DNA of 64,000 nucleotides from a virus. Shown here piece by piece: positions 5,999 to 33,170 of the stretch (within the stretch, counting starts at the first letter, position 1; each line of letters begins with the position of its first letter). The stretch covers positions 1 through 64,000 of the IMG/VR virus record IMGVR_UViG_3300044691_000113; one strand, written 5' to 3'. The notes below the pieces were generated by a model, which was given only the letters and a program-made list of their open reading frames with translations, searched no databases and was not told the origin of the DNA. Made by a program: the position numbers and the translations under genes.

Positions 5999-6016
5999 GC
6001 GTACCCTACCATTTTT
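5999..6016 (-). promoter_or_regulatory. Late promoter-like 18-base repeat, copy 1
   Basis: On the minus strand this reads AAAAATGGTAGGGTACGC, six bases before the ATG at 5992. It follows directly after an intrinsic-terminator-like hairpin (6043-6063), so one unit appears to end and the next to begin here. Identical cores lie at 18016-18033, 21688-21705, 23324-23341 and 33153-33170. Confidence 0.6.
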
Positions 6017-6042
6017 AGGAGGCAGCACAAGAGCAAAGGAAA

Positions 6043-6063
6043 AGCCCCCATGAGTAGGGGGCT
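6043..6063 (-). terminator. Intrinsic terminator
   Basis: On the minus strand AGCCCCC, a seven-base loop and GGGGGCT form a perfect 7-bp stem, followed by TTTTCCTTT. It lies after the 6484-7292 gene pair and just before promoter-like copy 1. Confidence 0.7.
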
Positions 6064-6483
6064 CATCCTCGGAGATTCAGACCATCCACGCAATCAACTT
6101 CAACCAACCTCCGGTCACGTTACAGCGTGGCCGGAGCCGCAGCAAAGATAGAGTGTCACAACCCTTCGGAGGAGAGGTTTGTTTTCCTCTCCCCCTTCCG
6201 GTTTACTGCTCGTCGTTTTATGGGTGTTCCGTGTGGCGTCGATGTTCGGACTGCCGAATTTGAAGCCCCGATTTCACTAGCGCATTCGGGACAAGATACG
6301 CTGGGTGCCCATATCCCGTTTCGGCGTTTGATAGCTCGTGTGGCGGCATCGTCCCCGCCACTGGACCAGCACGCCAAAGCTACAAAGACGCGCCGCGTAG
6401 AATTTGGTAGTGCAAGGGCAGGTCGGATCAAGCTTCCTACGGCGTCGAATCGAACCCCGCCCCCCGGAACTGAAGACAGAGTA
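6064..6483. other. Stretch without a convincing gene
   Basis: Between the terminator and the GNAT-like gene I see no well-supported CDS. A 91-codon minus ORF (6156-6431) contains a C-P-E-C pair but has no clear ribosome site. A hairpin with a GGAGAGG/CCTCTCC stem lies at 6171-6192. Part of the stretch resembles a tRNA or tmRNA arm but does not fold as one. Confidence 0.4.
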
Positions 6484-6930
6484 TCACGGTCGGAGTTGTC
6501 GAACGAAGTGAATAAACTTCTCCGTCACATCGGTAAAGCCGCACCGCTCCACCGTGCCGCGCATAATCTTCGCAAGTCTCGACGGCACCGCTACCCGTGC
6601 AAGGCGTATCTTTCTCGATACTAGAAAGCTGCCCAGCGTCGGAACCAGCGCCTCGAGCGAGTTCATGCCCTGCTTATTCAGGCCGATCTTTCTCAGATAA
6701 GCTTCGAACTCGATGTAGAGTCCGTCGACGATAATCCCGTCGAGATTTTCAGCCACCAATGTCAGCACCACGGGGAAGGCGAAGAAGTCGGGACGTTCCT
6801 GCGGTCCCATCATTTGCCCCGCAGCGTCGAGCAGGAAGGTGAGCGCCGGCAAGTCCCTCTCCTCCGCGATCCGCCACGTCAGGCCGTTCGACTCCAGCGA
6901 CCAGTGGCGCCAGTTGTCTACTTCTCCCAC
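6484..6930 (-). CDS. GNAT-like acetyltransferase candidate
   Basis: This 148-aa protein starts at a GTG that overlaps the end of the upstream gene. It begins with a TWRIAEERDLPAL segment, like the first strand and helix of GNAT proteins, has a central hydrophobic beta region (about 50-75), and ends RCGFTDVTEKFIHFVRQL, like the last GNAT strands. The acetyl-CoA loop (Q/R-x-x-G-x-G/A) is not evident, so activity is uncertain. It lies among tail genes and its phage role is unknown. Confidence 0.55.
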   Translation of the reverse strand: MGEVDNWRHWSLESNGLTWRIAEERDLPALTFLLDAAGQMMGPQERPDFFAFPVVLTLVAENLDGIIVDGLYIEFEAYLRKIGLNKQGMNSLEALVPTLGSFLVSRKIRLARVAVPSRLAKIMRGTVERCGFTDVTEKFIHFVRQLRP

Positions 6931-7292
6931 TCGTCGCCCGCCGCGGCCTTCAATTGCTCAAGTCCGTCTTTCAGCGCATTCACCATGAGCAATCCGCTTG
7001 AGAAAGCTGTCGGGGAGAAGTGCATCGCAAACATGATCGTTCCGTCATCGAAACGGAAGATGCCTGGATTGTCGGGGAAATTTACTGCTGGGTTTTCGAA
7101 GAAGTCCGGTATCGCTCTGTCTTTTTTCCAGAAGATAAAGGCCGCGCTGCGCGCCATGATACTTCCATTGGCTCCTACCATTTGGAAGAAGATGCGACCT
7201 TCCGATCGATAAAGGTGAGCAGGAGAACCTTCCATTACATCTTCGAAACGAATCTGGACGAGTTGGCATTCGCGATCTGTTGGCATACGCAT
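6918..7292 (-). CDS. Conserved phage protein of unknown function
   Basis: This 124-aa protein starts MRMPTDRECQ. It is rich in Phe and Ile with alternating beta-like segments (RIFFQMVGANG, AFIFWKK, GTIMFAMHF) and no signal peptide. It overlaps the GNAT-like gene downstream (GTG inside its last codons), so the two are probably translated together. No family recognised; a small virion or tail accessory protein is possible from its place between tail genes. Confidence 0.65.
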   Translation of the reverse strand: MRMPTDRECQLVQIRFEDVMEGSPAHLYRSEGRIFFQMVGANGSIMARSAAFIFWKKDRAIPDFFENPAVNFPDNPGIFRFDDGTIMFAMHFSPTAFSSGLLMVNALKDGLEQLKAAAGDEWEK

Positions 7293-7333
7293 GAGTGCAT
7301 CTTACATCCACTCTGGCGACAATCGGCGACAAA

Positions 7334-8821
7334 TTACATCCAGCAGAATGCCATCCAGTTCACGTCGCCGGTGTTGAAGTTTCCTGTTGCGTCCACTACC
7401 TGCATGAACGGAGTCAAGCCAGTAATCTCGCATTTGTAAACGCCGCTCATCGGATGGCTCGACGCGTTGATGCTCGCCGGGGTGGGGATAGCGAACATCT
7501 TATCCGACGTGAATCCAGCGGGGAGGCCGAATGCCGTACCACTCGTCACCCTGCCAGCGCCAAGGGCTATCTTGGTGCCGCTGGGTAGCTCAATGACGAT
7601 GAACTTCCCGCCCGCCACGCTGGTTACGGTCAGGCCCGGGGTCCATGCGATCGCGAACCAGTTGCCGGTTGCGCCCCACACACCGGTTGTAGTGTCAGCG
7701 AAGGAGCAACGCATCACGCCGCCCGCGTCGATTGCCGAGGTGTTGATGCCTCGCGCCTGTCGCGTCGGGTCAACGCCAGAGTTCGGGCTGACGATACTGA
7801 GGAAGTTCGCCGGGTTCACCCATGGCATCGTCGACGGCAGCGCCACCGCAACGCCGTTGTTCGTCACGCCGGTGCCGATCGAGAGATGCGCCCCACCCGG
7901 AAGCACAAAGTCTACCCACACCCCGTCCGCCGTCGTCTCCTCCGTCACATTCGTCCCCAGCGGGTCGTAGCAGAAGGCGAAGATGTTGCAACTCCCCGAC
8001 CACTTGTTCGGGATGCCATCCTCGTAAACCATGCTCACAAGGGTAGGGAAGTCCGGAGGTCCGGTCGTTGCGCCGCCGCCCGATGCGATAGATATGCTCT
8101 CGTTGAGGATGCCGTGGGCGAGGTTGCTGGTCTGCACCTGGAACCCGTTGGGTCCGGAGATAGCCTGCATCGCGGAGGTGAAGAGTTCAGCCGGAACGCC
8201 GAAGGTTCCGCCATCTGACGCGAAGGCCGCACCGAAGGCGACGAGCTGCTGACCCGGCAGCGTGAAGAGACCGAACGCGCCGTTGGTGGTTGCCTCGACG
8301 GTTACGCCCTCTGGCTGGCTGGTGATCGTCTGGCCGCCGTTCGCGTTGCGCCAGAGGTTGAAGTTGATGCCGTCGTAGCTCGAGCGCACCTGAAAGAAGA
8401 AGCGCCCGCTCGGAAGGTTGGTCAGGGTCCAGTAGGTTTGCGTCGAGCCGGTTGTCCCGCCGAAGACGGTCACCGCAGAAGAGATGTTGAACTTAGGCGT
8501 CGTCGCGCACCTGATCTGGTGGTAGATGGGAGTGATGGATGCGCTGTTGGCCGCTACGGTCTGTCCGCTGGTCTGCTGGGCCTGCTGCACGGCGGAGGCG
8601 GGAGCGATGGCGCCGGGGTTCTGGATCTCGACGATGTAGGTTCCCTTGAGGAAGCTCACCGTCGCCTTTACCTGCTGCGGGACGTTCTTGCCCGAGGTGC
8701 TGGTTACCGTCTGCGAGAGGTTCGAGGTAGTGGCGAGCGCCTTCAGGATTTCGCGGAGCTGCTCGTTGCCGGCTGCCGCGTCCTGAATCTTCTGTGTGGG
8801 GATTACGTTATTTTGCGACAT
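7334..8821 (-). CDS. Tail or fibre-associated protein, beta-rich
   Basis: This 495-aa protein starts MSQNNVIPTQ. A Gln/Ser/Thr-rich N-terminus is followed by a fibronectin-III-like segment (about 115-170, with LPSGRFFFQVRSSYDG), then a long Gly/Thr/Val-rich beta region to the end. This composition is usual for phage tail, fibre or adsorption proteins. It sits after the 913-aa tail protein and two very small genes. No enzymatic motif is visible. Its exact role (hub, fibre adaptor or spike) cannot be set from sequence alone. Confidence 0.65.
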   Translation of the reverse strand: MSQNNVIPTQKIQDAAAGNEQLREILKALATTSNLSQTVTSTSGKNVPQQVKATVSFLKGTYIVEIQNPGAIAPASAVQQAQQTSGQTVAANSASITPIYHQIRCATTPKFNISSAVTVFGGTTGSTQTYWTLTNLPSGRFFFQVRSSYDGINFNLWRNANGGQTITSQPEGVTVEATTNGAFGLFTLPGQQLVAFGAAFASDGGTFGVPAELFTSAMQAISGPNGFQVQTSNLAHGILNESISIASGGGATTGPPDFPTLVSMVYEDGIPNKWSGSCNIFAFCYDPLGTNVTEETTADGVWVDFVLPGGAHLSIGTGVTNNGVAVALPSTMPWVNPANFLSIVSPNSGVDPTRQARGINTSAIDAGGVMRCSFADTTTGVWGATGNWFAIAWTPGLTVTSVAGGKFIVIELPSGTKIALGAGRVTSGTAFGLPAGFTSDKMFAIPTPASINASSHPMSGVYKCEITGLTPFMQVVDATGNFNTGDVNWMAFCWM

Positions 8822-8996
8822 CGCGCCCTCGGCATCTCTTTCGGAACTCGTAGCCCTTCTCTTCCATCCACTCGATCATCATGTAGTTCCGGCAGCGCCA
8901 GCTTTTGCGGGGATCATCATCGAAGGCATAGCGCAGTGTGATGGGGCCAGCCTTCGTAATGCGGAAGATGCCGATTACTTCGTCCTTTGCGAACAT
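8808..8996 (-). CDS. Small basic protein, unknown
   Basis: This 62-aa protein starts MFAKDEVIG with GGGAG ten bases upstream, and ends in a Lys/Arg-rich tail (FRKRCRGRDVAK) that overlaps the next gene by 14 bases. It immediately follows the DUF6527-like gene. Translational coupling is likely; no family recognised. Confidence 0.55.
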   Translation of the reverse strand: MFAKDEVIGIFRITKAGPITLRYAFDDDPRKSWRCRNYMMIEWMEEKGYEFRKRCRGRDVAK

Positions 8997-9290
8997 CTAG
9001 CTCTCCCAGTCAGGAATCTCAACGGTCTGGTTCGCCAGCGCGTGCGTGCAATCGCCAAGGAATTGAATGCGCCCATCAGCAACGTATGAGTGACACACTC
9101 CTACAAGATTCAACGAAGGGGATAGCGTTGGAGAATCAAGGCTGCCATTCCATTGCCAGAAAGGGTAGTCATCCCATTCGTGATGTGCCAAACCGTCTTC
9201 GTGGGGTCTAACCCTAAAGCGATGAGGAGAATCGCATCCAGGGCACATAAATATCGCCCATCCACTCGGACCTACCTTGAGCTTCGCCAT
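8997..9290 (-). CDS. DUF6527-like phage protein
   Basis: This 97-aa protein starts MAKLKVGPSG at 9290, sharing one base with the stop of the 913-aa gene (TAATG). It has C-P-G-C near residue 18, SPTLSPSLN near 57, then CHSYVADGRIQF and DCTHALANQTVEIP at the end. This Cys/His pattern matches the DUF6527 family, common beside phage structural genes. The Cys and His residues suggest a bound metal. Its function is unknown. Confidence 0.7.
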   Translation of the reverse strand: MAKLKVGPSGWAIFMCPGCDSPHRFRVRPHEDGLAHHEWDDYPFWQWNGSLDSPTLSPSLNLVGVCHSYVADGRIQFLGDCTHALANQTVEIPDWES

Positions 9291-12031: not shown

Positions 12032-12403
12032 TTAGAAGCCCCAGTTAGGTCCAACCAGAGCGAGGAGGAACGAATCAGCAACGAGCGCGGCAGGGACGGT
12101 AATCGCTGTCATCTCGGTGCCAGGGGCGGTGAAGAACTTCAGGTTGAAGGCCGTCGCCAGCGTGGTTCCACTTCCAGCAACAATCTCAGCGGAGTATCCA
12201 GCGGGTGAGTTCTCGACCTGAATGTAGTCGGGAACCTTGCCGGGGAAGCAACTGCCCTGAAACGTGGGGTCCGTGATGGTGGTCAGGTCCAGCGGAAGAC
12301 CGCCAGGGATGTAGGTGATGGAGGTTGGGGCTGCCTTGACCTTGATGGTTTTGCTGCGGCGGGTGTTCGAGGAACCAACTGCGGAGATGTTGAAGTTAGG
12401 CAT
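12032..12403 (-). CDS. Small beta-rich structural protein (decoration or tail candidate)
   Basis: This 123-aa protein starts MPNFNISAVG. It is Thr/Ala/Pro-rich, with almost no charged residues after residue 30 and no signal or membrane segment. It is adjacent to the large tail protein start (12031). Size, composition and place fit a head-decoration or minor tail protein. This is inference. Confidence 0.65.
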   Translation of the reverse strand: MPNFNISAVGSSNTRRSKTIKVKAAPTSITYIPGGLPLDLTTITDPTFQGSCFPGKVPDYIQVENSPAGYSAEIVAGSGTTLATAFNLKFFTAPGTEMTAITVPAALVADSFLLALVGPNWGF

Positions 12404-12464
12404 TGTGTTGTCCTTCCTGCGGTCCTTTGGGGATCGGGTTCAGGGTTGTCGTTGATCTACACGC

Positions 12465-13163: not shown

Positions 13164-13178
13164 TGGCGTCCCCTCTGG

Positions 13179-14291: not shown

Positions 14292-14304
14292 GGTGTTGCT
14301 CCTT

Positions 14305-15078: not shown

Positions 15079-16353
15079 TTAGTATCCAGCAGGCTGTTTA
15101 CACCCAAAGACTGAAGACTGACTCTTCGGATTCGAGTTGTAGTAATTCACAGTGTCCACCATAAAACTGGCGGCACCGCTGGTGATCTGCCCGTTGGTTC
15201 CGACCTGCTGGAAAACCTTGCGGCCTTCCGAGGTGAACCAGAACGGCGGAGCGCCCCACTTGATCTTTCCCCACGTCTCAGTGTTGAGATAATCCCAGCG
15301 CTGCATGTGCGCGTGGATGTTCTCGACGACCGTGCAGCCGTTGACGGTGGGATCGCCCTGGAACAGGAGATCGTAACCGTTCGGTGCCTTACCATCGGGG
15401 CGGGTGATGGTCATCATCTGACCGGCAATCGCCTCGTAAGCAGCCTTCTGCCCGGTGTGGGTGTGGATCTTCAGCTTGCCGTTCTTGATGGCCGACAGAC
15501 CGAGCGCCTGCTTGATCTGGTCCATGGGGAGCCGGAGCAAGGGAGGAGTTACGGAACTGTTAGCCGCATTCACGGCATTGCTGATGATGAAGTTGTTGGT
15601 GGCAACCGATCGGTCCAGACCGATGGTGAGACCGGTCGTTGCATTCGAGAGCCAGTAGGGGATGCCGTACACGAAGCTGGGTGCGCCGGAGGCAAGGCCG
15701 GGTACACGCAGGATCGCGCCGGCAGCACCGAACACCGCATCGCAGTTCACGGTCTGTGCTCCGCCGAGGGACTGGGATACGGAAAGGATGTTCGAGGTGC
15801 CGATCAACGTAGTGCCGGTGTAGACATCCACGGGCATGTTCTTCGAGAGCAGCCGCGCTCCGAAGTCGTTGTTGTTGAGGGTGTAGATTTTGTTGGTGGT
15901 GTCGACAGCGGTGACGTTGCCGAGGAAGCCAGTGCCGTCTCCACCGCAGAGGAAGATGTCGCGATAGCGGGCGACCGCATCGATCGAATCGGCCATCTGC
16001 TTCATGACGACGTTGACAGCGGTCTGCTGCGGCTTACCGGCAATCTCCGCCAACTTGGTCCAGCCTACGGGCAGCGCCCATGCGACCGGAGCCATCGTTC
16101 CCTGCTGCCAGGTCGCGGAACCCGGGGTGGGGAAGTTGACTGCGGGATTGTCCAGTGAGATCGCGGAGATAGCTGCCGGGATGCTGTCCTGGAACGTTAC
16201 GCGGTACGTGTGAGCCGACACCATTTCGGCGCGGCCGTTGTCGGCGATCAGAGAGTCGAGAACGGAATCCCGCTCGACGAGAACCTCTGGATTCGCCATA
16301 ACCTGTTCGAGTGCTACTGCGATTGCTCCTACCCCTGCCTGAAGATCGGCCAT
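15079..16353 (-). CDS. Major capsid protein
   Basis: This 424-aa protein starts MADLQAGVGA with GGAGG just upstream. The length, the position after a scaffold-like gene, and the mixed alpha/beta composition fit an HK97-fold capsid protein. Segments consistent with this are an N-terminal helix, a VVMKQMADSIDAVARYRDIF spine-helix-like stretch (near 115-135) and a hydrophobic Gly/Ala/Ser/Thr-rich middle. No protease gene or propeptide site is evident, so assembly on a separate scaffold is likely. A stable hairpin lies just after the stop. Confidence 0.8.
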   Translation of the reverse strand: MADLQAGVGAIAVALEQVMANPEVLVERDSVLDSLIADNGRAEMVSAHTYRVTFQDSIPAAISAISLDNPAVNFPTPGSATWQQGTMAPVAWALPVGWTKLAEIAGKPQQTAVNVVMKQMADSIDAVARYRDIFLCGGDGTGFLGNVTAVDTTNKIYTLNNNDFGARLLSKNMPVDVYTGTTLIGTSNILSVSQSLGGAQTVNCDAVFGAAGAILRVPGLASGAPSFVYGIPYWLSNATTGLTIGLDRSVATNNFIISNAVNAANSSVTPPLLRLPMDQIKQALGLSAIKNGKLKIHTHTGQKAAYEAIAGQMMTITRPDGKAPNGYDLLFQGDPTVNGCTVVENIHAHMQRWDYLNTETWGKIKWGAPPFWFTSEGRKVFQQVGTNGQITSGAASFMVDTVNYYNSNPKSQSSVFGCKQPAGY

Positions 16354-16408: not shown

Positions 16409-18004
16409 TTAGGCGGCGGCGGCGGAGTTGCGCTTGAAGTTTTCCTGCATCACCTCGAGATTTGTCGGGGATCGGCCAAGATTCTTCGTGAGATCAGCAA
16501 TCACCGAACTAACCTGTTCCGGTCCAGTCAGGGCCGGGGCTTGCTTGGTGGGGGTCTGAGCTCCGCGTACTTCGCTGCGTGCTGCTTCAGTGCGAGCGGC
16601 TGACTTGTCGGCTTGCGCCTTCTGTTTGGCAGTGATGGTGACGCCAGCCTCTTCAAAGCAAGCTTTGACGGCTTGGCTGTTCATGCCCTGATTGAAGTAT
16701 TTGGAAGCGACCTTCATGTGCTGCTTCTGTCGGTCGGGACCATAGGGGAGAGCGTCAAGCGCTTCCATTTCCTGCTTGAAGAACTTGTTGCCCTTGACCT
16801 GCTTCACCAGTGCTGCGTGGACGTCGCCCTTTAGTGCTCTCTTCGCGAAGGGGGTAAGCCCATCAGCGTGAGAAAGAACGGACTCGATCCCCGTCTCCAT
16901 CATTGCGTCGATACGAGTGTTGACAGTGGTGTTGTAGGTCTTCGCTGCTTCCGCAACTCCGGCCTGCTTCTCCGTCGCGAGCGCTGCCCGCTGTGCCTTC
17001 ACTTCGTCCAACTGGGCCTTTACCTCGGCTGACATGGTCTCTTCATTCGCACTGGAGGGGGTGCGCAGTCCTGCTCGCTCCATGAGGATGTCAATCGCTG
17101 CTTGGCCTTCTTCGTCTCCCTTGGCTGTGAAATCTGCCTGCAGGAGAGTCAACTTCTGCTCAAACGAGTTGCGCAGAAACTTTCCAACCATGCCGTTGGT
17201 TTTGAGGGCTCCATTCGCTTCGAACTGGAGGTTCCCATCGGCGTCACGGATGGCGGATGCTTCGAGCATCGCGCCCATCACGGGTTGTAAGGTCGTCATG
17301 TCGCCATCGGTGATGCTCTGCATGGCAGACGTAATATCGGTGAACGTCGCGTGTGCAGCGACAGCGCGGGCCGCATCCTCGGGCGAGGCGACCACGGCTT
17401 TGAAAGCGGCGGTCTCGGCGGCGAGGCGGGCGTTAGCGAAGAGTTCGCTCTTGAGGTCGGCGTTGCCTTCGAGTGCGGCCTTCAGCGCTGGATCCGCGTC
17501 AAGCTTCGCGGCAAGCTCCTTGGGCGCCAGGGCAATGGGGTCGAGTTCGAAGCCCGGGAGGTCTTCGTCGTCGCCCGCGGCATCCTTCTCGGCTTTGGCG
17601 GCAGCGGCAGCCTCTTCCGCAGCGGCGGTCTCGGCGGCGATGTCCTCCGGAGTCTTCGTTCCAGCGGCGGCAGCTTCGGCCGCAATCTCTTCGGGCGTCT
17701 TGGCCGGAGTACCTTCAGCAGCGGCAACAGCAACGGCGGCCTCGGCATCCTTGGTGGCCTGCGCCTCCTGCATCACCTGAAGCGTGGACTTGCCGGCGTC
17801 GGATGGGACGGCAGCGGCTGGTTCGGCGGCTGGAGTGGTCGCGGCGGCTGCCGGAGCCGCACCCTCCGTGCTGGCCGGAGCCGCTACCGTAGTCGCCGCA
17901 GCAGGAGCGGAAGTCGCTGCGGGCGTTGCCGTGGGCGCCGCAGAAGCGGCTGGTGCGCTGGAGGTTGAAGCGGGGGCGGCGGGTGTGATGGTGACTTCGC
18001 TCAT
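16409..18004 (-). CDS. Scaffolding protein (Ala/Glu-rich)
   Basis: This 531-aa protein starts MSEVTITPAAP. The first 170 residues are an Ala/Pro/Thr then Ala/Glu low-complexity, disordered region. The rest is predicted alpha-helical (long Ala/Lys/Glu/Gln stretches) with a basic, Gln/Thr-rich C-terminus. This architecture, placed immediately before the capsid gene, is typical of phage scaffolds. It is the first gene after promoter-like copy 2 (11 bases upstream of its ATG). Confidence 0.75.
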   Translation of the reverse strand: MSEVTITPAAPASTSSAPAASAAPTATPAATSAPAAATTVAAPASTEGAAPAAAATTPAAEPAAAVPSDAGKSTLQVMQEAQATKDAEAAVAVAAAEGTPAKTPEEIAAEAAAAGTKTPEDIAAETAAAEEAAAAAKAEKDAAGDDEDLPGFELDPIALAPKELAAKLDADPALKAALEGNADLKSELFANARLAAETAAFKAVVASPEDAARAVAAHATFTDITSAMQSITDGDMTTLQPVMGAMLEASAIRDADGNLQFEANGALKTNGMVGKFLRNSFEQKLTLLQADFTAKGDEEGQAAIDILMERAGLRTPSSANEETMSAEVKAQLDEVKAQRAALATEKQAGVAEAAKTYNTTVNTRIDAMMETGIESVLSHADGLTPFAKRALKGDVHAALVKQVKGNKFFKQEMEALDALPYGPDRQKQHMKVASKYFNQGMNSQAVKACFEEAGVTITAKQKAQADKSAARTEAARSEVRGAQTPTKQAPALTGPEQVSSVIADLTKNLGRSPTNLEVMQENFKRNSAAAA

Positions 18005-18015: not shown

Positions 18016-18033
18016 GCGTACCCTACCATTTTT
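18016..18033 (-). promoter_or_regulatory. Late promoter-like 18-base repeat, copy 2
   Basis: The core matches copy 1 exactly. It lies 11 bases before the scaffold ATG, after the nucleotidyltransferase-like gene stop at 18076. The upstream flank on the minus strand is GAATCTCCG. No good Shine-Dalgarno lies between element and start, so GGTAGGG in the element could also serve ribosome binding. Confidence 0.6.
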
Positions 18034-18075
18034 CGGAGATTCGTCAATCGTCTTTTTTTGTCGCCGCCTGTCGAA

Positions 18076-18438
18076 CTACTGCGCAACCGGTTCTATTTGC
18101 AGTCGTGGAATTACCGAGAGGTCGATGTATGTCCCATTGAAATGGATCGTCCAGCACATCCGACCGTGAGGCTTCAGCCGCGGGAACGGACCATCGTGAC
18201 CGTAGATGGCGAAGCCGATGATCTCTTCTGTCTTCTCACGCAAAGCATCGGCGAGTTCCTGCGGCGGCGCTGCCTCGTCAATCCACGGAATCGCCACAAG
18301 ATCGATGTCGCGCTTGATACTTCCATGCACGGTGAGCGCATAGCCTAGCTCGCGGGCACGCTCGCGCAGAGGGGTGATCGTCTTCGCGTAGGCTTTCGCG
18401 ACTCGAATCTGGCCGTGACGATCGAGGGGGATTTTCAC
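18076..18438 (-). CDS. MNT-type nucleotidyltransferase-like phage protein
   Basis: This 120-aa protein starts at a GTG that overlaps the portal stop (GTGA). It has HGSIKRDIDLVAIPW near residue 33, a G-S-x3-D-x-D pattern that matches the nucleotidyltransferase-fold active site, and a later WTIHFNGTYIDLSV stretch that supplies the third strand. This small family is often found in phage late gene sets. Its substrate is unknown. It sits between portal and scaffold and is probably coupled to portal translation. Confidence 0.7.
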   Translation of the reverse strand: MKIPLDRHGQIRVAKAYAKTITPLRERARELGYALTVHGSIKRDIDLVAIPWIDEAAPPQELADALREKTEEIIGFAIYGHDGPFPRLKPHGRMCWTIHFNGTYIDLSVIPRLQIEPVAQ

Positions 18439-20831
18439 TGCGCTACGGGCTGTGGACCGCTCGGCTGACCTGGCTGCGCGGCCGCCTGCTGCATCTGGAT
18501 AGCCTGCGCCGCCTGCGCCTCCTCGACCATCTGCGTAGCCTGAGTCAGCAACGCCAGCACATTGGCGAATCCGAGCGGATTGGTCGCCTCGGTCTGCCAG
18601 TTCTCCTGCAGCCAACCCTTCGCGATGGTCTGCGCCATGGCCATGTCGTCGTACTTCGGGTTGAGCATGATGCTCGGAAGCACGATCGGCTGTCCGTCCG
18701 GATCCTCGACGAGGCGGGGTTCCTGCTTCGCGAGCTGCTGGCAGATCATCTTGATTCGCGCCCGCTCGCGCTCGCCGGGGAGCCTGATCTGGTCGGGCAG
18801 GATGTAACGCGAGATAACCTTCTGCGTATCCGGGTCTGAGAGTACCCCGAGCAGGAAGTCGTTCTTGGCCGCCATCTCGAGCAGTTGCATGATGCGCGCC
18901 TGAACCTCTTCGTAGCTCGCCGGGAAGCCTTCGTCGGACTCCGCATAGGCAAGAAACTCGCCGGTAAGCTGGCTGGCCAGCAGAGTCTCCTGCTTGTAGT
19001 CGCCGTCGACGTCGCCCTGGATGACGATCTTGATCTCGTCGTCCATGTTGGCGACAGAGCACTTGACCGAGTTCTGGGCGCGGGCGGCGTGCTCCTCGCG
19101 TATCTGGTCCCAGAAAAGCATCATGCGTCCGAGTGCCGTCTTCAACGCTTGCTGCTGGCCGCCCATCGTCTTCACGTTCGGATCGGAACCGCCGAAGGTC
19201 TGCGGCTGAACGCCAACCAGTACCTGCGCCAACTGGATAAGCTGGGGACCATACTCGAAGATGTGCGAGTCGATGTGGAACTCGGGCTGGTACATCAACT
19301 CCGAAAGCGGAGTGCTCTTCCCCTCCATGTCGCCGGTGCGCTTGACGCCGGTCATGTTGCCCGGGGAGAGTGTCTTCTTCTCGAAGCTGGCGCCGTCGAT
19401 GATGTCCTCGTCGTAGAGGATGGTGCCGAAGGCCAGCCGGTCCATGTAGGCGTGAACATCGTTGGCGGCATCGTTGATGCGGACCTGAACGTCGAGCGCC
19501 ACGTCGCCCACGCCGAACGGGTACATGCCGAGACCTTTGATGGTCGCGCACCATGTCCACTTGTCCATCATCCGTTCGGGAACGGCTTGCAGGAAGAGGT
19601 CGTTGGAGAAGGTGACCAGTTTGACGCCATCAGGGAACAAGGCGAGGAGCTGGGCCGCCATGGTCTCGTCTTCGAGGATGTTGAACGCCTCGGGCTGCAA
19701 CCAGCAGCGGGAGTAGGTGCCGACGTTGGCGGTGGTCATCGCGACGCCACCATTCGCGCCGGGGGTTGTCAGGCTCTGCCGCGCCATCTTCGCGGTATCG
19801 TCTCCGCTGGATCCGCTGTTCGCTTCGCCCTGCTGGATGGTGCGGTAGAGCTTCGGATACTGCGCGCGCACCCACGCGATGTTGGTCTCGGCTTCGAGGT
19901 CGAGGTAGAGCGAGTCGTAAAGCTCCTTCGCGTCGGGGTCGACATCGACGTTCAGACCGGAGTAGACGTCCATCGCGGTCATGCCGGCCGCAGTCTCGTT
20001 GACGCCTACCTTCGTCGGTACAGGCATCGTCTGGCCTTCGTACCAGTCCTTGTCGCCCATCGGCGCGTTGCAGCCCGGGCAAGGAGGATTGGAGCCGCCC
20101 GCCATGCCGGTCTGATCTTCCGGCGTCACCTGCGAGCACTCCGGGCAGATGTAGCGGTTCGGCATTACCTGGGTGGGAACCATCGCGATGATCGGCTGGC
20201 GGTTGATCCCCGCGCGGTTCTTGTCGATGATGTGGCGGGTGTAGCAGAAGTAAGAGCCAGCGCACCACAGATACAGCAACTCGAGCTTTTGCAGCGCCTT
20301 GATACCGTTGCGCCGCTCGTTGTACGCCTGGATCGTTGAGGCCTTCTGCGCGATGACGATGTCTTCCTCGTTGTCCGCATCCCCGGGCTGGTAGCGCGTC
20401 TTCGGAACATCGGGCGAGAGCGCGGCGATGAACGCCAGACAAAGCATCTGGTAGACGTTGTCGTTGGACTGGTAGAGATCGACGTCCTTGCCGTCCGTTA
20501 CGCCCTGCATGATGGTGTCGAGGGTGTCGAACTCCTGGGTCGCGTCGTTGAAGGTGATGTAGGGGTTGTTCTTGAGGACTTCGAAGGCGCGTTTGACGCG
20601 GCGGAGGAAGATGAGCCGCTTGGAAACGTTCGCCTCTTTGAGGGTCTTACGGACCAGGATGAGCGCGGCCTGCTGGTCTGGAGTGACCTGAACCGGTGCG
20701 TTGCCCTGTGCGGTGTCGTCTGCGCCTGCGCTTGTGACTGGGGATGAAGAGGTTGGGTCTGCCGATTGCGGGGCCGGTGGCGGCTGTTGCTGCCCTTGAA
20801 GCGTGTCGGTCGGCATGGTCATTGTCGCCAT
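18435..20831 (-). CDS. Portal protein with an internal zinc ribbon
   Basis: This 798-aa protein starts MATMTMPTDT and has a Pro/Gln/Ser-rich N-terminus. Its length, long helical C-terminal half with an Ala/Gln-rich tail, and place before scaffold and capsid mark it as a large podovirus-type portal, which forms the dodecamer at the capsid vertex. Unusually, residues about 235-265 hold a C-P-E-C ... C-P-G-C zinc-ribbon insertion. The C-terminal ERERARIKMICQQLAK helix (about 685-700) could be part of the barrel. The stop overlaps the next gene's GTG. Confidence 0.8.
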   Translation of the reverse strand: MATMTMPTDTLQGQQQPPPAPQSADPTSSSPVTSAGADDTAQGNAPVQVTPDQQAALILVRKTLKEANVSKRLIFLRRVKRAFEVLKNNPYITFNDATQEFDTLDTIMQGVTDGKDVDLYQSNDNVYQMLCLAFIAALSPDVPKTRYQPGDADNEEDIVIAQKASTIQAYNERRNGIKALQKLELLYLWCAGSYFCYTRHIIDKNRAGINRQPIIAMVPTQVMPNRYICPECSQVTPEDQTGMAGGSNPPCPGCNAPMGDKDWYEGQTMPVPTKVGVNETAAGMTAMDVYSGLNVDVDPDAKELYDSLYLDLEAETNIAWVRAQYPKLYRTIQQGEANSGSSGDDTAKMARQSLTTPGANGGVAMTTANVGTYSRCWLQPEAFNILEDETMAAQLLALFPDGVKLVTFSNDLFLQAVPERMMDKWTWCATIKGLGMYPFGVGDVALDVQVRINDAANDVHAYMDRLAFGTILYDEDIIDGASFEKKTLSPGNMTGVKRTGDMEGKSTPLSELMYQPEFHIDSHIFEYGPQLIQLAQVLVGVQPQTFGGSDPNVKTMGGQQQALKTALGRMMLFWDQIREEHAARAQNSVKCSVANMDDEIKIVIQGDVDGDYKQETLLASQLTGEFLAYAESDEGFPASYEEVQARIMQLLEMAAKNDFLLGVLSDPDTQKVISRYILPDQIRLPGERERARIKMICQQLAKQEPRLVEDPDGQPIVLPSIMLNPKYDDMAMAQTIAKGWLQENWQTEATNPLGFANVLALLTQATQMVEEAQAAQAIQMQQAAAQPGQPSGPQPVAQ

Positions 20832-20834: not shown

Positions 20835-21326
20835 CTACTGGACCCTCGCCTGTTCTCTGCCTGCTTGCTCGGCCGCCTCAATCTTCGCCATCACCGATTC
20901 CGGCGCCGAGAGGACGCCTGGTTCCATCGCCCGCTGACGCTTGGCGGCCTGGGCGATGATGGCCTGAGCCCGGATGCTCTCCATCTTCTGCAGGACGTGA
21001 CTCGCGCTATTCTTTCCGGTTGGCATCTCTCGCAGTGCGAGGTTACGGATGGCTATCTTGTCGTTCGGGTCGACCTCAGCAAGGTCCAGCGTCGGGGGTT
21101 CGCTGTGTGGCTCCGCCTGGTCGCGGCGAATGAACCGCGGCGTCGGTAACGGCTTCGGCGTCATCGCCTCGATCAGATTCTCTATGGCAGCCTCGCGGGA
21201 GGCATCCGCCTGGAGGCGATCAGCGCGGGCGGCAGCCAACTCTTCGCGCAGACTCTGAATCTGCTCGTCCTTCACGGCGACGATAGCGGTGTGAAGCGCC
21301 TTCCAGATGAAGATGTCTCTCCACAC
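20835..21326 (-). CDS. Helical protein upstream of portal, unknown
   Basis: This 163-aa protein is read from a GTG at 21326, four bases after the stop of the preceding gene. A longer in-frame ORF to 21440 would overlap that gene and looks non-coding at its N-terminus. It has a coiled-coil-like segment (about 20-60), a Pro-rich middle and an Ala/Glu/Gln C-terminus, with no Cys and no membrane segment. It directly precedes the portal gene; a head-assembly accessory role is possible. The start is uncertain. Confidence 0.5.
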   Translation of the reverse strand: MWRDIFIWKALHTAIVAVKDEQIQSLREELAAARADRLQADASREAAIENLIEAMTPKPLPTPRFIRRDQAEPHSEPPTLDLAEVDPNDKIAIRNLALREMPTGKNSASHVLQKMESIRAQAIIAQAAKRQRAMEPGVLSAPESVMAKIEAAEQAGREQARVQ

Positions 21327-21330
21327 GGGC

Positions 21331-21666
21331 TTAGTCGGTCTCCGTGACTCGCAGTTGGGTGGTGCCGGTGATGCACGAAGCCATGACGTAGACATCGGCG
21401 GCGCGGACATTGAGTCCGGTCTGCGCCGGCATCCCCACAAAGGAGCCCTTGTTGTCGTCCTTGGCTACCTTATTGCCGAGGAGTACCGGCTGGGCAGCGG
21501 CTTTGTAGGCGAAGGAGGCGGTAAAGTTGTCCTCGGGAAATTTGAGGACGAGACCGACAGAGGCGACGCTGTCATCCTCCTGCAACTCGACCATGCGGGC
21601 GAACTGAAGCGCAGGAATCGCGGTGAAGCTTCCGGCCGTGAGTGCAACTAATGGTCTGCGTAGCAA
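21331..21666 (-). CDS. Conserved small protein, unknown (virion candidate)
   Basis: This 111-aa protein starts at a TTG with GAGGAGG seven bases upstream. It is a compact mixed beta protein (LQEDDSVASVGLVLKFPEDN, VYVMASCITG) without a clear signal peptide. It is the first gene after promoter-like copy 3. Size and position fit a small head decoration or structural protein, but no family is recognised. Confidence 0.65.
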   Translation of the reverse strand: MLRRPLVALTAGSFTAIPALQFARMVELQEDDSVASVGLVLKFPEDNFTASFAYKAAAQPVLLGNKVAKDDNKGSFVGMPAQTGLNVRAADVYVMASCITGTTQLRVTETD

Positions 21667-21687: not shown

Positions 21688-21705
21688 GCGTACCCTACCA
21701 TTTTT
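21688..21705 (-). promoter_or_regulatory. Late promoter-like 18-base repeat, copy 3
   Basis: Identical core to the other copies. It lies 21 bases before the TTG start at 21666, which has its own Shine-Dalgarno, so the element here is separate from ribosome binding. The minus-strand upstream flank is TGAATCCT, shared in part with copy 5. Confidence 0.6.
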
Positions 21706-21725
21706 AGGATTCAGCGCAAGCGGGA

Positions 21726-22946: not shown

Positions 22947-23318
22947 TTACTCCGTAACGTGAAGTGTGTTGTCGCCTTGATGCACCGCTGCTGCGATGCC
23001 GTCGCGCAGGCCGCGCTCGAGGATGATGCAGCCCTCAGAGGCCGTATGGTTGAGGTTGGGATTGTCGCCGTGGATGAAGAAGCCAGAGCGCCTGAACATC
23101 TCGTTGTTAGCTGCCGGCTGCAACCGCATTGCTACCGGGCCGAGATGAGGGTCCGTCGCCGCGTTACCGATTGTGTAGATCCCCTGCGGGCACGGACCTA
23201 CCATCGGGACGTTCTGCATCGCGGGGTTATTCACACCCTCGCCGCGGCCGGAGTAGCCCTTGCCGATGGCAACGCCATTGTGGGTGAAGACGCCCGTCGA
23301 TTGTGAGAATGTCCACAT
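22947..23318 (-). CDS. L,D-transpeptidase/Tlde1-like (DUF2778) enzyme, probable lysis enzyme
   Basis: This 123-aa protein starts MWTFSQSTGV. It holds FFIHGDN near residue 80 and TASEGCI near 94, the His and Cys motifs of the Tlde1/DUF2778 branch of L,D-transpeptidase-like proteins, which act on peptidoglycan stem peptides. It lacks a signal peptide and lies next to holin-like genes, so it probably reaches the wall through the holin as an endolysin-like enzyme. It is the first gene after promoter-like copy 4 (five bases before its ATG), with no normal ribosome site. Confidence 0.7.
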   Translation of the reverse strand: MWTFSQSTGVFTHNGVAIGKGYSGRGEGVNNPAMQNVPMVGPCPQGIYTIGNAATDPHLGPVAMRLQPAANNEMFRRSGFFIHGDNPNLNHTASEGCIILERGLRDGIAAAVHQGDNTLHVTE

Positions 23319-23323: not shown

Positions 23324-23341
23324 GCGTACCCTACCATTTTT
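23324..23341 (-). promoter_or_regulatory. Late promoter-like 18-base repeat, copy 4
   Basis: Identical core, only five bases before the ATG at 23318. If transcription starts at the GGG triplet, the mRNA leader would be about 13 bases. It separates the 23353-23706 gene from the lysis genes. Confidence 0.6.
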
Positions 23342-23352
23342 CGGGAGGAAGT

Positions 23353-23706
23353 CTACTCGGGAGTGATGAAGTGGGTTTTGCCGGGAGGTTCACTTCGGCT
23401 CGGAGTCCTGATGAAGCCGAGCAGGTTGAGAACGCCAAGCCCGGTAACGATCGTGGCGCCGACACCGCATATCAGCGAGACCTTCTCCGCGACCCCGCTC
23501 AGGCGAGCATCCGTCGCCGTCAGGTGGTCGTTGATCTCCCGTTCCTTCTCGTCATGCCGGTCCCAGTCCCGACGCTCATACTGCTGCTGCGCCTGAGACT
23601 GGCCCTGCGCGAAGACCACGAAGCCGCGGTCGATGTTGTGCAGCATCCCCGCGCCCGCGAAGGCCACCAGGCTGTAGACGAGTCGAAGTAGTCTGTCTCT
23701 CTGCAT
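23353..23706 (-). CDS. Small membrane protein (lysis candidate)
   Basis: This 117-aa protein starts MQRDRLLRLV. A first hydrophobic segment lies at about 8-22, a charged helical stretch (about 40-70) follows, and a second hydrophobic segment lies at about 77-99. A two-segment membrane protein beside a lysis enzyme suggests a holin or spanin-type role. No family recognised. It follows the secreted 1043-aa protein by three bases. Confidence 0.55.
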   Translation of the reverse strand: MQRDRLLRLVYSLVAFAGAGMLHNIDRGFVVFAQGQSQAQQQYERRDWDRHDEKEREINDHLTATDARLSGVAEKVSLICGVGATIVTGLGVLNLLGFIRTPSRSEPPGKTHFITPE

Positions 23707-26841: not shown

Positions 26842-26981
26842 CTAAGTCCTTGGTGGTACTATTCTTAGCTATGCGACACTTGACGTTTTTACTATCTGCC
26901 TGCCGAACCTACTGGTCTCTAATCACTGAAAAGACAACGAAAGAAGAGAGGGATGAGTGGCGTCCATTCTCGATGTGATTC

Positions 26982-27779: not shown

Positions 27780-27784
27780 CGTCG

Positions 27785-30700
27785 TTATATCCCCGGGCAG
27801 GTATAGGTAATGGTGTAGCCGGTCGAAGCGGTGGGTGCCGTACCGACATTGAGGGTCCACACCGAGGTGGTGTAGCTCCACGAGTAGGGCAGAGCAGTGA
27901 AGGGGCTGGCAGTGAGGACGACGCTTGCCGTGCAGTCCGGCAGATTGGTGTGTGCCGTACCCGCCGTCACGGTGAGCAGTGCGCCCGTCGTGGTCGCCGT
28001 TCCTGCGGTGAGGGTGACGGTCCCGTTCGTGGGCCCGCAGAGATGGCTTGCGGTGCAGGCGATCGTCGGTGACGTTCCAGCAGCAGCGCCCGCCGCGATG
28101 GTTGCCGCCGTGAAGGAGCCGATTGCATTGCCCTTGAGGGTCGGTGCCTGCTCTGCCCCGGTGTACGTGCCGCCCGTTCCAGTGGCTCCGTTGATGACTG
28201 GCGAGGTCAGCGTCTTGCCGGTGAGCGTCTGGGTCGCCCCGATGCCTGCCAGCGTGTCGCTCGCCCCTGGCAGGGTAAAGGTTGCGTTGGCGGACCCGGT
28301 GAACTGCGTGTTGAAGGCACCGTTGAGGGTGAGGGTTGAGCCAGTGATCAGAGTGAGTGTCGCCGAGGTCGTCGGCGCCGTGATGGTCACCTTGTTGATA
28401 GAGGTGGCAGTCGCCGCGCCAAGGGTCGGTGTCACCATCGTGCAGCTCGTCACCAGGCAGACGTTGCCGCTTCCGCTCGTCCCCACGATGGTCTCGATGA
28501 TCGCGCTCGAAGAGTTTGTGTAGAACGGGAATCCGGTAGCGGCCGCGCCTGCCAGCGTGACACTGTAGGACGTGACTGCGGCCGGAGCCTGGATGCAGAT
28601 AGTCGTCGTCGTGCAATTGGCATCACCTGTACTTGTCGTTCCCTGTGGCAGGAAGAGAAAGCCTGCTGTGGTGCCGGTGCCGACGAAATACTTGCCTGCG
28701 AAGCCAGCCGTGCCGGTGTAGGTGAAGGCCGTTCCGCTGTCGGTCGCCAGGGAGTTCTTAGGGGCTCCGCCTGCACCGCCGCCGAGCATCACTACGTTAT
28801 TGGTCAGCAGCGCCGAGGTTGCGGCTGCCGAGGTGCTGGAGGCGTAGAAGACACCGCCAGAGGTGAAGCCTGCACTCGCCGGGAACGTGTTGCCGTTGAC
28901 CGAGGTCGCATTGATCGTTCCGCTGCCGGATACGCCAAGGCTGGCACCAGTGCCGACCACCATAGCCGCCGTGGAGTTCGTGCTGCCGGTGAGCGCAGAG
29001 AAGGCAGTTGAGCCGCCTGAGCCGCACGCAGCACCAGCGTCAACCAGGTCGATGCCGTTGGCTGCCAGCTTGACACAATCTGCCGCGGTGCCGGCTGTCG
29101 CAATACCCGGAATCATCAGCGCACCGATGTTGTTCGGGTTCTGCATCCAGCGGTGCAAGGTGGAGTCAGGGTAGAGCGCCGCAGAGGAGGCTACGCCGGT
29201 GATTGCCGTTCCTTCCGGAATCAACCAGCCGTTAGCCGTTCCTGAGCCCGTGTAGGTGAGCTTCGTTCCGTCATCCGTAAGTCCGGAGTTGATGATGGAA
29301 TTCGCACCGTTGGCTTTGGGGATAGTGTTCGTAACCAGCGAGGTCGAGGTCGTGTTGCCGGTGCCAGCAGCAGGACAACCAGACCCACCCGTCTGACAGA
29401 GGCCAGCGAGCGCCACACCGCCTACCGCGCTGGAGTTTGTGGCCAGTGTCGCTGTCGCCGCGTTGCCAGTAGTGCTCTGGTTGAGTGTGGGAAAGTCGGC
29501 AGCTACGGCCGCAGAGAGCGTGCCTGCCGTGTCCTTCAGTATCCCGGTGAGACCTGATGGCCCTTGAGTTGTTCCCAGATTCCCGGAGAGAAGCGAAAAG
29601 CTGTAGTCGCCGCTCACGGGCACAACCGCTCCGGCTCTCGTGTTGAAGCTCGACACACCAGTCCCGGAGCCGCTGAACGTATAGGCGTTGCCTGTATGAG
29701 ATACGCCCGGTCCGCTGAAGGTGAAGGCCCCAGTCAGCGTATCAATACTGATTACGCCACCACCACCGCCCCCGCCGCAGCCAGAGCAGCTTGGCACGGT
29801 GATCGGCACGTCGCTAGACCATCCGGAAACTGTCTGAATCACGTGGGAATCGCCCGAGACGCCGTGGATTGTCGTCGTTGTTGCAGAGCTGGTCTGGTCG
29901 ATAGTGGAGAATGTCCCGCCAGCACCGCCCACTACGCTATTGGCGTCTGAAGTAGTGATGGTTTGGATGTACCCAGAACCGGTAGTCTGAAGAATTATTA
30001 TGTGGTCTGCGGGTTCCTCGCGTACCGTCAAGGTGTTAGTGCTGTTTCCGGTCACCCTCTCCATTTTGCCGGTGTCCTGGTGGATCGTCTCGGTGTACGT
30101 CCCGTTTTGGGTTGGGACCCGAAAAAGAAGAAAATTGGAGCGTGCATCCGCACAACCAAACGAGCAACCCTGAAATGTGACGAACGCGGTGTCGGGCGTG
30201 GGAATATTCTGGAAAATGGTGAGGAACGGGGCTTCGTTATTGGTCATGTCGAGCATGACGTTCGCAACTGGCTTAGTTCCCCCGTGGCCGAGATAGTTAT
30301 TTGGGGTGTCCTGGAACGCAACGCGATACCACGTCGTTCCTTCGGGGATCTGGCCGCCGAGTTGATCAAAGTGAATAACGTCAGGGGTAGCCGGAGAGAC
30401 CTGTGATTGGAAGTTGATAAGGTTGTGGTCAAGCCCCTGGAAAACTTCGCTATAGACCTGATCTTCTAAGTGGTCTCCGGCAGTTACCTGAAAGTTGGTA
30501 TTCGGCTCGACGGTCAGATTGAAGTTGTTGGCGAAGGTGACGGGGTCTACCGTATTCACGATTTCTACGGCGGGAAACAGTTGAGCTTCGCGAACTGAAA
30601 GTCCATTGAGCTGAGACTGAATCTCGACAGCATTAGTGCAGGTTGTCGTAGCTGCTGGGCCGGCAGTGTTCCATGTGACCGTAGAGCCGTTATCGGAGGT

Positions 30701-33130
30701 AATAGCTGCAAGGATATTGAACGACGTATCTGCACAGCCAGAGACGATGATGAAATCTTTCGACAGGACTAAGAACGGATCAGTCACCGGGGCGCTGACG
30801 ACGTTCGAGCTGTTTCTGGTAAGCGTGACGCCAGCAGGGGCAACTATTCTCGTTGTGGCGTAGCCCGAAAGAGCCTGTAGCCAACGACCCGCACCGATCC
30901 TTGAATACAAGAGGTGCGTGGCGTCCAGTGCCCCAACGATACGGATAATCTGCCGCCCAGGGAACGTTCCAGTGTACTGATTGGCCCTGATGTCAATCGC
31001 GGTGCAGGAGTGCGAACCCTGTACGACATAGGCCTGGGCTTGGTGGTTGTAGCGTAGGGCTACCGTTATGGTCTGAGTCCCGCTAGAAAATCCACCGACC
31101 GAGACTACCCTTGCACTCTCCATATAATCGCGGTCGGCATAGCAGACGGTGCTGGCCGTGGTGATTGCGGAGGTGAGACCGGTGACCACAACGGTCGCGT
31201 TCGTCGTCGCGCCATAGTACTGGGTAGGAACGGTTACAGGCGAAGCTACCCGTCCGATGTTGTCGGGAGTCAGGGTAAGCGTGTCGATTGTCAGTTGGCC
31301 CGCATCGGCAACCCCCGGATCACCTGAGAAAACTATCTTGAATAGGGCGCTTCCCTTGCTGGCATCGACGAGGGGCGTTCCATCTCCCGGAAAGGGCACG
31401 TTACTAATCAGCGTCCCTTGTATCAGCGTGGCTCCCGCCGCAAGAGTGGAGTTAGCCGAGATGGTCATCGGGGTAAGGTTCTGGCCGATCTGATTCCTTA
31501 CCGTATTGAAGCCTTCAGCACCGCCGTCCGGGTTTCCCCTGTTGTTGGTGACAACGTTCTGCCAGATGTGGCTGTCGCCAACCCCCATTCCTTGATGCTG
31601 AATGGTGAATTCGTTGACAATGCCGCGCCGCATGAATTCGAAGGCCCACTGAAAGGCTACGTAGCTGTCAGGTCCGCCGCCGTCAAATCCGTTCTTCCCC
31701 GACCCGGTCATTTCAAAATCGCGTAGGTAGGTGAAGACGTTATTTCCCGCACCCGAAGCCTGCGCCTGCTGATTCGATACCCAGCGGTCGTCGCTAACAA
31801 TGCCGCTCGGCGATCCTACATTGGTGTTATAAGCGTAGCTGCCAATACCATTCTGCCGGTAGTCATAGAACTTAGTATTGTTGGCAAATGGTGCTGGGCA
31901 GCCGATGGCATCACGCCAGTTGGGGCCGACGCAGGTACTATTCCCGCTGAGGATGCCTTCAACTTGGGCGTAATCCGGGCCAGCCACAACGATGCTTCCC
32001 GCTACCGCCAAAGCATTCGCTATGCCATCGTTCGAGGTTGGTGTGGTCTGATTGAGGAAGGCATTCTTGAGGCCGTCGTTACTCAGAGATTTGAAGTTGC
32101 CCACGCTGTCGAAGGTGGCGTTAGAGGCTGATCCCGCTCCACCTCCGGCGCTGAAGATTGCCTGGTTGACCGTGCCGGGTATCGTGCTTCCACCTCCGCC
32201 CGGTCCGCATTGCCCGTTGACCTGCAACACGTTGGTTCCAACTGTGCAAGGGGTTCCACTCCATATCGTCCCAGCGAGCGAGACGTAGTCACCCAAGACT
32301 GCCGCGCGAGAGGTGAGCGGCGTGATGCCGAAGACAGGAGCATTGCTTGGCAGGGTTGCGCCAGCTCCGCATCCGCCCGTCGAGCAGAGCGTAGTCAGTG
32401 GAACAAGACCGATCTGCGTAGGAGGGTTGCCGGGTACGGGTCCAGCCCATACGAAGCCAGGGGTGATGTACGCCTGATTCGCGTCGATGCAGAAGGTTGT
32501 CCCGTTGATCGCGGAGGCTATCGCCTGGTCGTTTCCACGCTGGCAGCTCGGGTTGAGCGAGGGATTCTGTGTCCAGTAGACAGCGGCGTCGCCCTGCAGC
32601 CTCGAGCACACCCATGGGTAAGGATCGGAGGCGAGGGTGTTGTTATACATCGCACTCGGATTGCAGTTGAGCGTGGGGATACCGGCGCCAGAGATGGTGA
32701 TGCCAGCGGGAGCGATGTAGCCGTCGTAGGAGAAGGACGCCGTGGTGATGTTGGTCAGCGGGAAGGTGAAGTAGGTTGTGCCGCCGCCCGTGCTCTGTGT
32801 CTGGATCCGGTAGCGTGTGTTCGCCGGAGCCATCGTCAAAGGGTTGGCGATCGTCGGGGGAAAGCCGCCGATGTTCTGCACTGCTCCCTTGACGACTGGG
32901 AGAGTGAAGGGCGCACTCGTCGGAGATCCACCCTGGGGCGTGTAGGTAACCGGGGTGTTTGACGTGTCGGTGACGGTGAAGATGAGTTGGCCGGTGAGCG
33001 GTTGCCGGTTGTTATCGACGACCTTGTTGCCGCTGACGGGGATGGTCGCCTGCGCATGGAGCGCAGGGGGGATGGCGAGGAGGACGGCCGCGAGCAGTCC
33101 GAAGGTAAGCCAAAAGTTGATCCTGCGCAA
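27785..33130 (-). CDS. Giant secreted tail-fibre-like protein
   Basis: This 1781-aa protein is read from a TTG at 33130 with GGAGG six bases upstream. An ATG at 33166 lies inside the promoter-like repeat and is less likely. A Sec signal peptide (LTFGLLAAVLLAIPPALHAQ) opens the protein. An N-terminal domain (ATIPVSGNKVVDNNRQPLTG), a long Thr/Ser/Gly/Asn-rich beta body and fibre-type repeats (TGNAATATLATNSS near 1345) follow. The repeats are typical of tail fibres, and the signal peptide is not. It is the first gene after promoter-like copy 5. Confidence 0.7.
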   Translation of the reverse strand: MRRINFWLTFGLLAAVLLAIPPALHAQATIPVSGNKVVDNNRQPLTGQLIFTVTDTSNTPVTYTPQGGSPTSAPFTLPVVKGAVQNIGGFPPTIANPLTMAPANTRYRIQTQSTGGGTTYFTFPLTNITTASFSYDGYIAPAGITISGAGIPTLNCNPSAMYNNTLASDPYPWVCSRLQGDAAVYWTQNPSLNPSCQRGNDQAIASAINGTTFCIDANQAYITPGFVWAGPVPGNPPTQIGLVPLTTLCSTGGCGAGATLPSNAPVFGITPLTSRAAVLGDYVSLAGTIWSGTPCTVGTNVLQVNGQCGPGGGGSTIPGTVNQAIFSAGGGAGSASNATFDSVGNFKSLSNDGLKNAFLNQTTPTSNDGIANALAVAGSIVVAGPDYAQVEGILSGNSTCVGPNWRDAIGCPAPFANNTKFYDYRQNGIGSYAYNTNVGSPSGIVSDDRWVSNQQAQASGAGNNVFTYLRDFEMTGSGKNGFDGGGPDSYVAFQWAFEFMRRGIVNEFTIQHQGMGVGDSHIWQNVVTNNRGNPDGGAEGFNTVRNQIGQNLTPMTISANSTLAAGATLIQGTLISNVPFPGDGTPLVDASKGSALFKIVFSGDPGVADAGQLTIDTLTLTPDNIGRVASPVTVPTQYYGATTNATVVVTGLTSAITTASTVCYADRDYMESARVVSVGGFSSGTQTITVALRYNHQAQAYVVQGSHSCTAIDIRANQYTGTFPGRQIIRIVGALDATHLLYSRIGAGRWLQALSGYATTRIVAPAGVTLTRNSSNVVSAPVTDPFLVLSKDFIIVSGCADTSFNILAAITSDNGSTVTWNTAGPAATTTCTNAVEIQSQLNGLSVREAQLFPAVEIVNTVDPVTFANNFNLTVEPNTNFQVTAGDHLEDQVYSEVFQGLDHNLINFQSQVSPATPDVIHFDQLGGQIPEGTTWYRVAFQDTPNNYLGHGGTKPVANVMLDMTNNEAPFLTIFQNIPTPDTAFVTFQGCSFGCADARSNFLLFRVPTQNGTYTETIHQDTGKMERVTGNSTNTLTVREEPADHIIILQTTGSGYIQTITTSDANSVVGGAGGTFSTIDQTSSATTTTIHGVSGDSHVIQTVSGWSSDVPITVPSCSGCGGGGGGGVISIDTLTGAFTFSGPGVSHTGNAYTFSGSGTGVSSFNTRAGAVVPVSGDYSFSLLSGNLGTTQGPSGLTGILKDTAGTLSAAVAADFPTLNQSTTGNAATATLATNSSAVGGVALAGLCQTGGSGCPAAGTGNTTSTSLVTNTIPKANGANSIINSGLTDDGTKLTYTGSGTANGWLIPEGTAITGVASSAALYPDSTLHRWMQNPNNIGALMIPGIATAGTAADCVKLAANGIDLVDAGAACGSGGSTAFSALTGSTNSTAAMVVGTGASLGVSGSGTINATSVNGNTFPASAGFTSGGVFYASSTSAAATSALLTNNVVMLGGGAGGAPKNSLATDSGTAFTYTGTAGFAGKYFVGTGTTAGFLFLPQGTTSTGDANCTTTTICIQAPAAVTSYSVTLAGAAATGFPFYTNSSSAIIETIVGTSGSGNVCLVTSCTMVTPTLGAATATSINKVTITAPTTSATLTLITGSTLTLNGAFNTQFTGSANATFTLPGASDTLAGIGATQTLTGKTLTSPVINGATGTGGTYTGAEQAPTLKGNAIGSFTAATIAAGAAAGTSPTIACTASHLCGPTNGTVTLTAGTATTTGALLTVTAGTAHTNLPDCTASVVLTASPFTALPYSWSYTTSVWTLNVGTAPTASTGYTITYTCPGI

Positions 33131-33152
33131 AGTACGCCTCCGCTGTAACGCG

Positions 33153-33170
33153 GCGTACCCTACCATTTTT
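33153..33170 (-). promoter_or_regulatory. Late promoter-like 18-base repeat, copy 5
   Basis: Identical core, 22 bases before the TTG start at 33130. It also contains part of the TAA stop of the upstream gene (33169-33171). The minus-strand upstream flank GAATCCT matches copy 3. Confidence 0.6.

Follow-up and report, generated by a model that had tools for sequence, protein, structure and literature searches.

Five identical copies of an 18-mer, AAAAATGGTAGGGTACGC, are likely to be late promoters in a temperate phage, at which host sigma70 would act through an extended -10 element and a weak -35 box and a phage factor would provide the switch. The host's RNA polymerase, carrying the housekeeping sigma factor, would recognise the TGGTAGGGT part of the element, aided by the weak -35 box 16 nt upstream, and a pre-late phage factor, most plausibly a zinc-ribbon protein encoded at 33795-34271, would activate the promoters and explain why some letters of the element are specific to each genome. 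We infer sigma70 as the reader, the late timing, the exact transcript starts and the role of the zinc-ribbon protein. The elements precede the leading genes of successive minus-strand units with virion, lysis-type and packaging genes, and it is from this gene content that we call the units late.

An exact search of the window (the whole 64,000-nt stretch of DNA that was analysed) returned the 18-mer five times, always on the minus strand and each time 5' of the gene that opens a late unit, in agreement with a preliminary description of this DNA (Table 1). Dinucleotide shuffles (n = 100) contained the 18-mer 0.02 times on average and never five times. The distance from its 3' end to the start codon is 6, 11, 21, 5, and 22 nt for copies 1 to 5, respectively, which reproduces the 5 to 22 bases given previously, and the intrinsic terminator reported ahead of copy 1 was also recovered. 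Scattering of the element inside coding regions elsewhere had been named as an outcome that would tell against it; we found no further exact copy in the window, none with one to three mismatches, and no extra 18-mer in the 5.3 kb by which the record exceeds the window. Two other exact matches in the viral collection (L007 and L008) were single copies that look like chance, one lying in an AT-rich coding-like stretch and the other antisense inside an ORF. No plausible gene begins at the ATG within the element; at copy 5 an ORF does formally start there (33166), but the TTG at 33130, which has a Shine-Dalgarno sequence, is the likelier start. The gene that copy 4 precedes encodes an L,D-transpeptidase-like protein (Tlde1_dom/YkuD), which may act on peptidoglycan in lysis or as part of the virion.

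Table 1. Positions of the element copies, the associated signals and the candidate regulator (window coordinates).
Feature	Position	Strand	Remarks
Copy 1	5999..6016	-	Extended -10 element; gene 5435-5992 (ATG 5992) comes first; predicted transcript start ~5996
-35-like box of copy 1, TTGTGC	6025..6030	-	
Intrinsic terminator upstream of copy 1	6042..6064	-	Folded stretch -23.2 kcal/mol, z -4.6
Copy 2	18016..18033	-	Precedes gene 16409-18004 (531 aa) and putative capsid gene 15079-16353
-35-like box of copy 2, TTGACG	18042..18047	-	
Copy 3	21688..21705	-	Precedes 21331-21666, then 20835-21440, then portal-sized 18435-20831 (798 aa)
-35-like box of copy 3, TTGCGC	21714..21719	-	
Copy 4	23324..23341	-	Precedes 22947-23318 (L,D-transpeptidase-like)
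-35-like box of copy 4, TAGACT	23350..23355	-	
Copy 5	33153..33170	-	Precedes 1.8-kilo-residue ORF 27785-33166, likely start TTG 33130
-35-like box of copy 5, TAGCCA	33179..33184	-	
Candidate late activator	33795..34271	-	Cys4 zinc-ribbon protein of 158 aa, tail KSTGRPK; gene 0.6 kb upstream of copy 5; putative role

The record is 69,299 bp long and has 127 bp common to both ends, so that it amounts to a 69,172-bp circle. Such identical ends (127 bp here, 127 in G006, 123 in G010) suggest overlaps left by the assembler on circular molecules and not biological terminal repeats; in G004 (L024, L027) a tandem 57-bp unit is present at both contig ends (1-120 and 67050-67318) in at least six copies. 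Because an integrase and an excisionase/repressor-like protein are encoded, the phage is probably temperate. An ORF of 3647 residues crosses the joined ends (4036 down to 1, then 69172 down to 62265 of the record) and combines SNF2/helicase and 2'-5' RNA ligase domains with an NVPFG methylase-like motif, as a giant polyvalent protein that reaches 4177 residues in G004. The large terminase is apparently split across the family into two adjacent ORFs, here 60991-61743 (phrog_2 terminase, weak) and 59867-61096. The pair overlaps in this phage, G001 and G006, overlaps by 4 nt in G003 and lies 1 nt apart in G004, an arrangement that suggests two genes and not a sequencing error.

No resembling phage was found in public phage records, whereas profile searches of IMG/VR gave relatives (G001 and G003-G014) whose capsid-protein identities span 33% to 84%. 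They appear to form a family of roughly 60-80 kb uncharacterised soil phages, known here from environmental contigs alone; a related capsid gene was not found in the GTDB genome set that could have pointed to a host. In related phages, where the preliminary description had proposed to look for it, the element recurs at orthologous genes, mostly in a genome-specific spelling. The element of copy 1 has orthologues in G001, G003, G004, G006, and G007, and the G001 site (GAAAATGGTAGAGTCTGC) has precisely the same spacing to the ATG. Most related genomes hold a private spelling in 4–7 copies (TAGTCT, TAATCT, TATTCT, TACTCT, TATGAG): AAATGGTAGTCT five times in G006, ATGGTAATCT seven times in G004, GGAAATGCTAATCT five times in G005, TCTGCTACTCT five times in G012 and TTTTGGTATGAGT four times in G008. 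G003 carries TG[GC]TATTCT four times with TGG and TGC mixed, and G007 is not uniform, with AA, TG or AC between TGGTA and AGT. The dispersed TTTCATTAGGGTGT repeats of G018, a distant terminase relative (L150, L151; 50489-50614 and 68549-68599), are apparently unrelated to the element.

Alignment of the sites on TGnTA separated constant from variable letters. The TGGTAGGGT part of the 18-mer, TGnTAnnnT, is the extended -10 part of a sigma70-type promoter, and these letters are the ones that sigma70 reads most in extended -10 promoters. T-15, G-14, T-12, A-11, and T-7 were invariant at 31 of 31 sites from six tabulated genomes, so that every one of these sites has TGn directly 5' of a hexamer with T1, A2, and T6. 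In G007, G008, and G014 the last T is displaced by one base (TGGTANNAGT), with TGnTA retained. Positions -10, -9, and -8 are constant inside each of the six tabulated genomes and differ between them, all four bases occurring at position -10. In this phage a diverged TTGACA-like hexamer lies 16 nt 5' of the -10, matching 19 of 30 letters where 7 were expected (P 2e-5), whereas no other spacing gave more than 7 matching letters. With the spacing preset to 16 nt, G001, G003, and G006 jointly matched 36 letters against 14 expected (0 of 200,000 simulations); the box was not detectable in G004, G005, G008, or G012. A -35 box at 16-18 nt, which is optional in the extended -10 class, is thus present at 16 nt in G000, G001, G003, and G006. 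A consensus promoter scan gave fewer matches than in shuffles. The earlier idea of a phage-specific promoter gains support from the sequence evidence, and judged by sequence the element is a real class of late promoter, kin to the known extended -10 promoters described in PMC7403470.

The spelling appears to change in concert within each genome. Taking the genes 5435-5992 (u1) and 16409-18004 (u2) of this phage as landmarks, whose orthologues have the repeated elements at their starts in the relatives, we found the same spelling at u1 and u2 within each of G000, G003, G004, G006, and G012, with five spellings that are all different; only 1 of 120 possible pairings matches in every genome. Most other sites were found as repeated strings, and uniformity within genomes is therefore partly by construction. 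Recognition by sigma70 alone does not account for the fixation, within a genome, of letters to which sigma70 is nearly indifferent, and a private spelling at the same genes in each relative points to an undiscovered viral reader protein. The simplest explanation for the concerted change would be a common trans-acting reader whose specificity has shifted.

Such a reader could be a phage RNA polymerase or sigma factor that has diverged beyond detection, in which case the likeness to extended -10 promoters would be incidental or inherited. Many proteins of this phage are without a known family, and phage polymerases and their promoters co-diverge, a pattern known in general that the private spellings parallel. 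However, PF00940 (T7-type RNA polymerase) had no match in this phage and ten relatives while the T7 control gave E ~1e-109, Sigma70_r2 and Sigma70_r4 were not found in G000-G006, and no credible double-psi-barrel polymerase motif was found in any frame, a single DLDGD sitting in the giant polyvalent ORF. One sub-threshold Sigma70_r2 match was seen in the distant G018. The family-constant letters, moreover, are TGnTAnnnT, and a TTGACA-like box stands at the right spacing in four genomes. We therefore regard an undetected polymerase or sigma factor as improbable. The preliminary description had noted no polymerase gene in the window, and none was detected in the complete 69,299-bp record; the segment missing from the window, where it had proposed to search for an RNA polymerase or sigma factor, yielded neither. 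The resemblance it saw to promoters of single-subunit phage RNA polymerases was not borne out, and we rejected such a promoter because the polymerase was not found in 11 family members and the site is bipartite, as we rejected a phage sigma factor regulon because no recognisable sigma gene was found in G000-G006.

It is likewise improbable that the elements are ordinary host promoters that reached five places through duplication or short-tract recombination and have no phage-specific reader. Two adjacent sites in G005 look duplicate-like by eye, and TCCT stands beside copies 1, 3, and 5 and CCG beside copies 2 and 4. Flank identity, on the other hand, was at background in every genome compared (mean 24-29%); since the flanks are unrelated, long duplications are excluded, recent duplication is unlikely and we set aside a recently duplicated promoter cassette. 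The sites occur at orthologous genes across the family and are therefore old, yet their spellings differ between genomes.

Starts of transcription just 3' of the element are consistent with the leaders and terminators around it. We placed the predicted transcript start about 7 nt past the last T, so that three of the five first genes in this phage (those of copies 1, 2, and 4) would be read from nearly leaderless mRNA, whereas the first genes after copies 3 and 5 would be read from short leaders with Shine-Dalgarno sequences. Leader classes were sorted by hand from the site table and a few intermediate or unclear sites were omitted, so the following counts carry some judgement: a Shine-Dalgarno sequence was absent in all 18 tested first genes with predicted leaders of 2-9 nt (two more in the table agree) and present in 10 of 12 with leaders of at least 18 nt (short versus long, Fisher 2e-6). 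Intrinsic terminators lie upstream of 5 of 37 element sites compared with 12 of 789 other ORF starts (P 6e-4). A translational role, akin to the start-associated sequences of cluster K mycobacteriophages, which are short, repeated, near start codons and in one orientation, with extended forms that differ between subclusters (PMC3203893), would suit the nearby start codons and the repetition but is very improbable: the relatives' versions TGCTATTCT, TGCTAATCT, and TGCTACTCT have no letters resembling a Shine-Dalgarno sequence, the start codon lies anywhere from 8 to >70 nt away, with a separate Shine-Dalgarno sequence in most long cases, and the -35 box and upstream terminators indicate a transcription start. 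For the first of these reasons we also discarded the hybrid of promoter and ribosome-binding element that had been suggested earlier.

A phage activator may act at the promoter, as had also been suggested earlier. We searched for the phage factor of the promoter model by all-against-all protein comparison, which gave one regulator-like family with a matching distribution, the zinc-ribbon family. It was found in each of the seven large genomes that carry the element (G000, G003, G004, G006, G007, G008, and G012) and absent from the large genomes G010 and G011, where the repeated element was not seen, and an HMM search agrees. This association consists of presence or absence in nine related genomes together with gene position. 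Two further families are distributed likewise among the large genomes but were also present in partial genomes in which no element was visible. Members of the zinc-ribbon family have 105-158 residues (the annotated frame in G003 is longer) and four cysteines (Cys4), and five of seven end in a (K/R)STGRP(R/K) tail. The gene lies on the same strand as the elements, 0.2-2 kb upstream of the first one and just before the late block. The protein weakly matches generic zinc ribbons only; the Ogr/Delta domain PF04606 gave no match above the cut-off, with only weak matches elsewhere in G010 and G012, and the predicted structure has a confident N-terminal ribbon and no informative structural neighbour. 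That this protein is the late activator of the element promoters is a tentative proposal, and somewhat doubtful. Less likely still is the more specific idea that it gives the sigma70 holoenzyme specificity for letters inside and around the -10, so that promoter set and factor would co-evolve within each phage, much like pairs of polymerase and promoter but without a phage polymerase or sigma factor. Two other proteins were set aside as regulators, a 302-aa protein (40999-41907) that occurs in 6 of 7 genomes and is helicase-loader-like by eye only, and a 348-aa acidic protein (58352-59398) that also occurs in G013, where the repeated element was not seen.

The element would define a class of late promoters across an uncharacterised family, from which late transcription units and late mRNAs almost without leaders are predicted, and it comes with one testable candidate regulator, the zinc-ribbon protein. 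If a phage factor does read the genome-specific letters in addition to host sigma70, promoter specificity could be altered with no new polymerase or sigma factor, and the family would offer at least six diverged pairs of promoter and factor.

Several known systems share single features with this arrangement. T7-like promoter sets consist of near-identical copies through one genome that have co-diverged between relatives; the repetition and co-divergence are alike, but here a phage polymerase was not found and the anatomy is bipartite and sigma70-like. Ogr of phage P2 is a small Cys4 activator of several late operons, and as with Ogr and the B protein of phage 186 the candidate activator here is a small Cys4 protein; the conserved letters, however, lie in and around the -10 and not in a distal activator site, and Ogr_Delta matches stayed below the cut-off. 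By the tests run, the element set thus belongs neither to the T7-like promoters nor to the P2/186 type. MotA of T4 reads a box that replaces the -35, whereas the genome-specific letters here sit in the -10 region. In T4, the phage factors AsiA and MotA steer the host holoenzyme to the middle promoters, a class of phage promoters with a -10 (PMC7403470). The cluster K start-associated sequence GGGATAGGAGCCC, which its authors link with translation start sites (PMC3203893), differs from the element, which is promoter-like and stands at unit starts only. Closest in function are the middle and late promoters of Thermus phage P23-45, which belong to the extended -10 class and are used under phage gp39 (PMC7403470). 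Both systems would combine phage gene units, extended -10 promoters and host RNA polymerase, a combination read from sequence here, where very short leaders are also predicted, but in the present family each genome has uniform -10 letters that differ from those of its relatives, four genomes retain a -35-like box, and the candidate factor is a zinc-ribbon protein.
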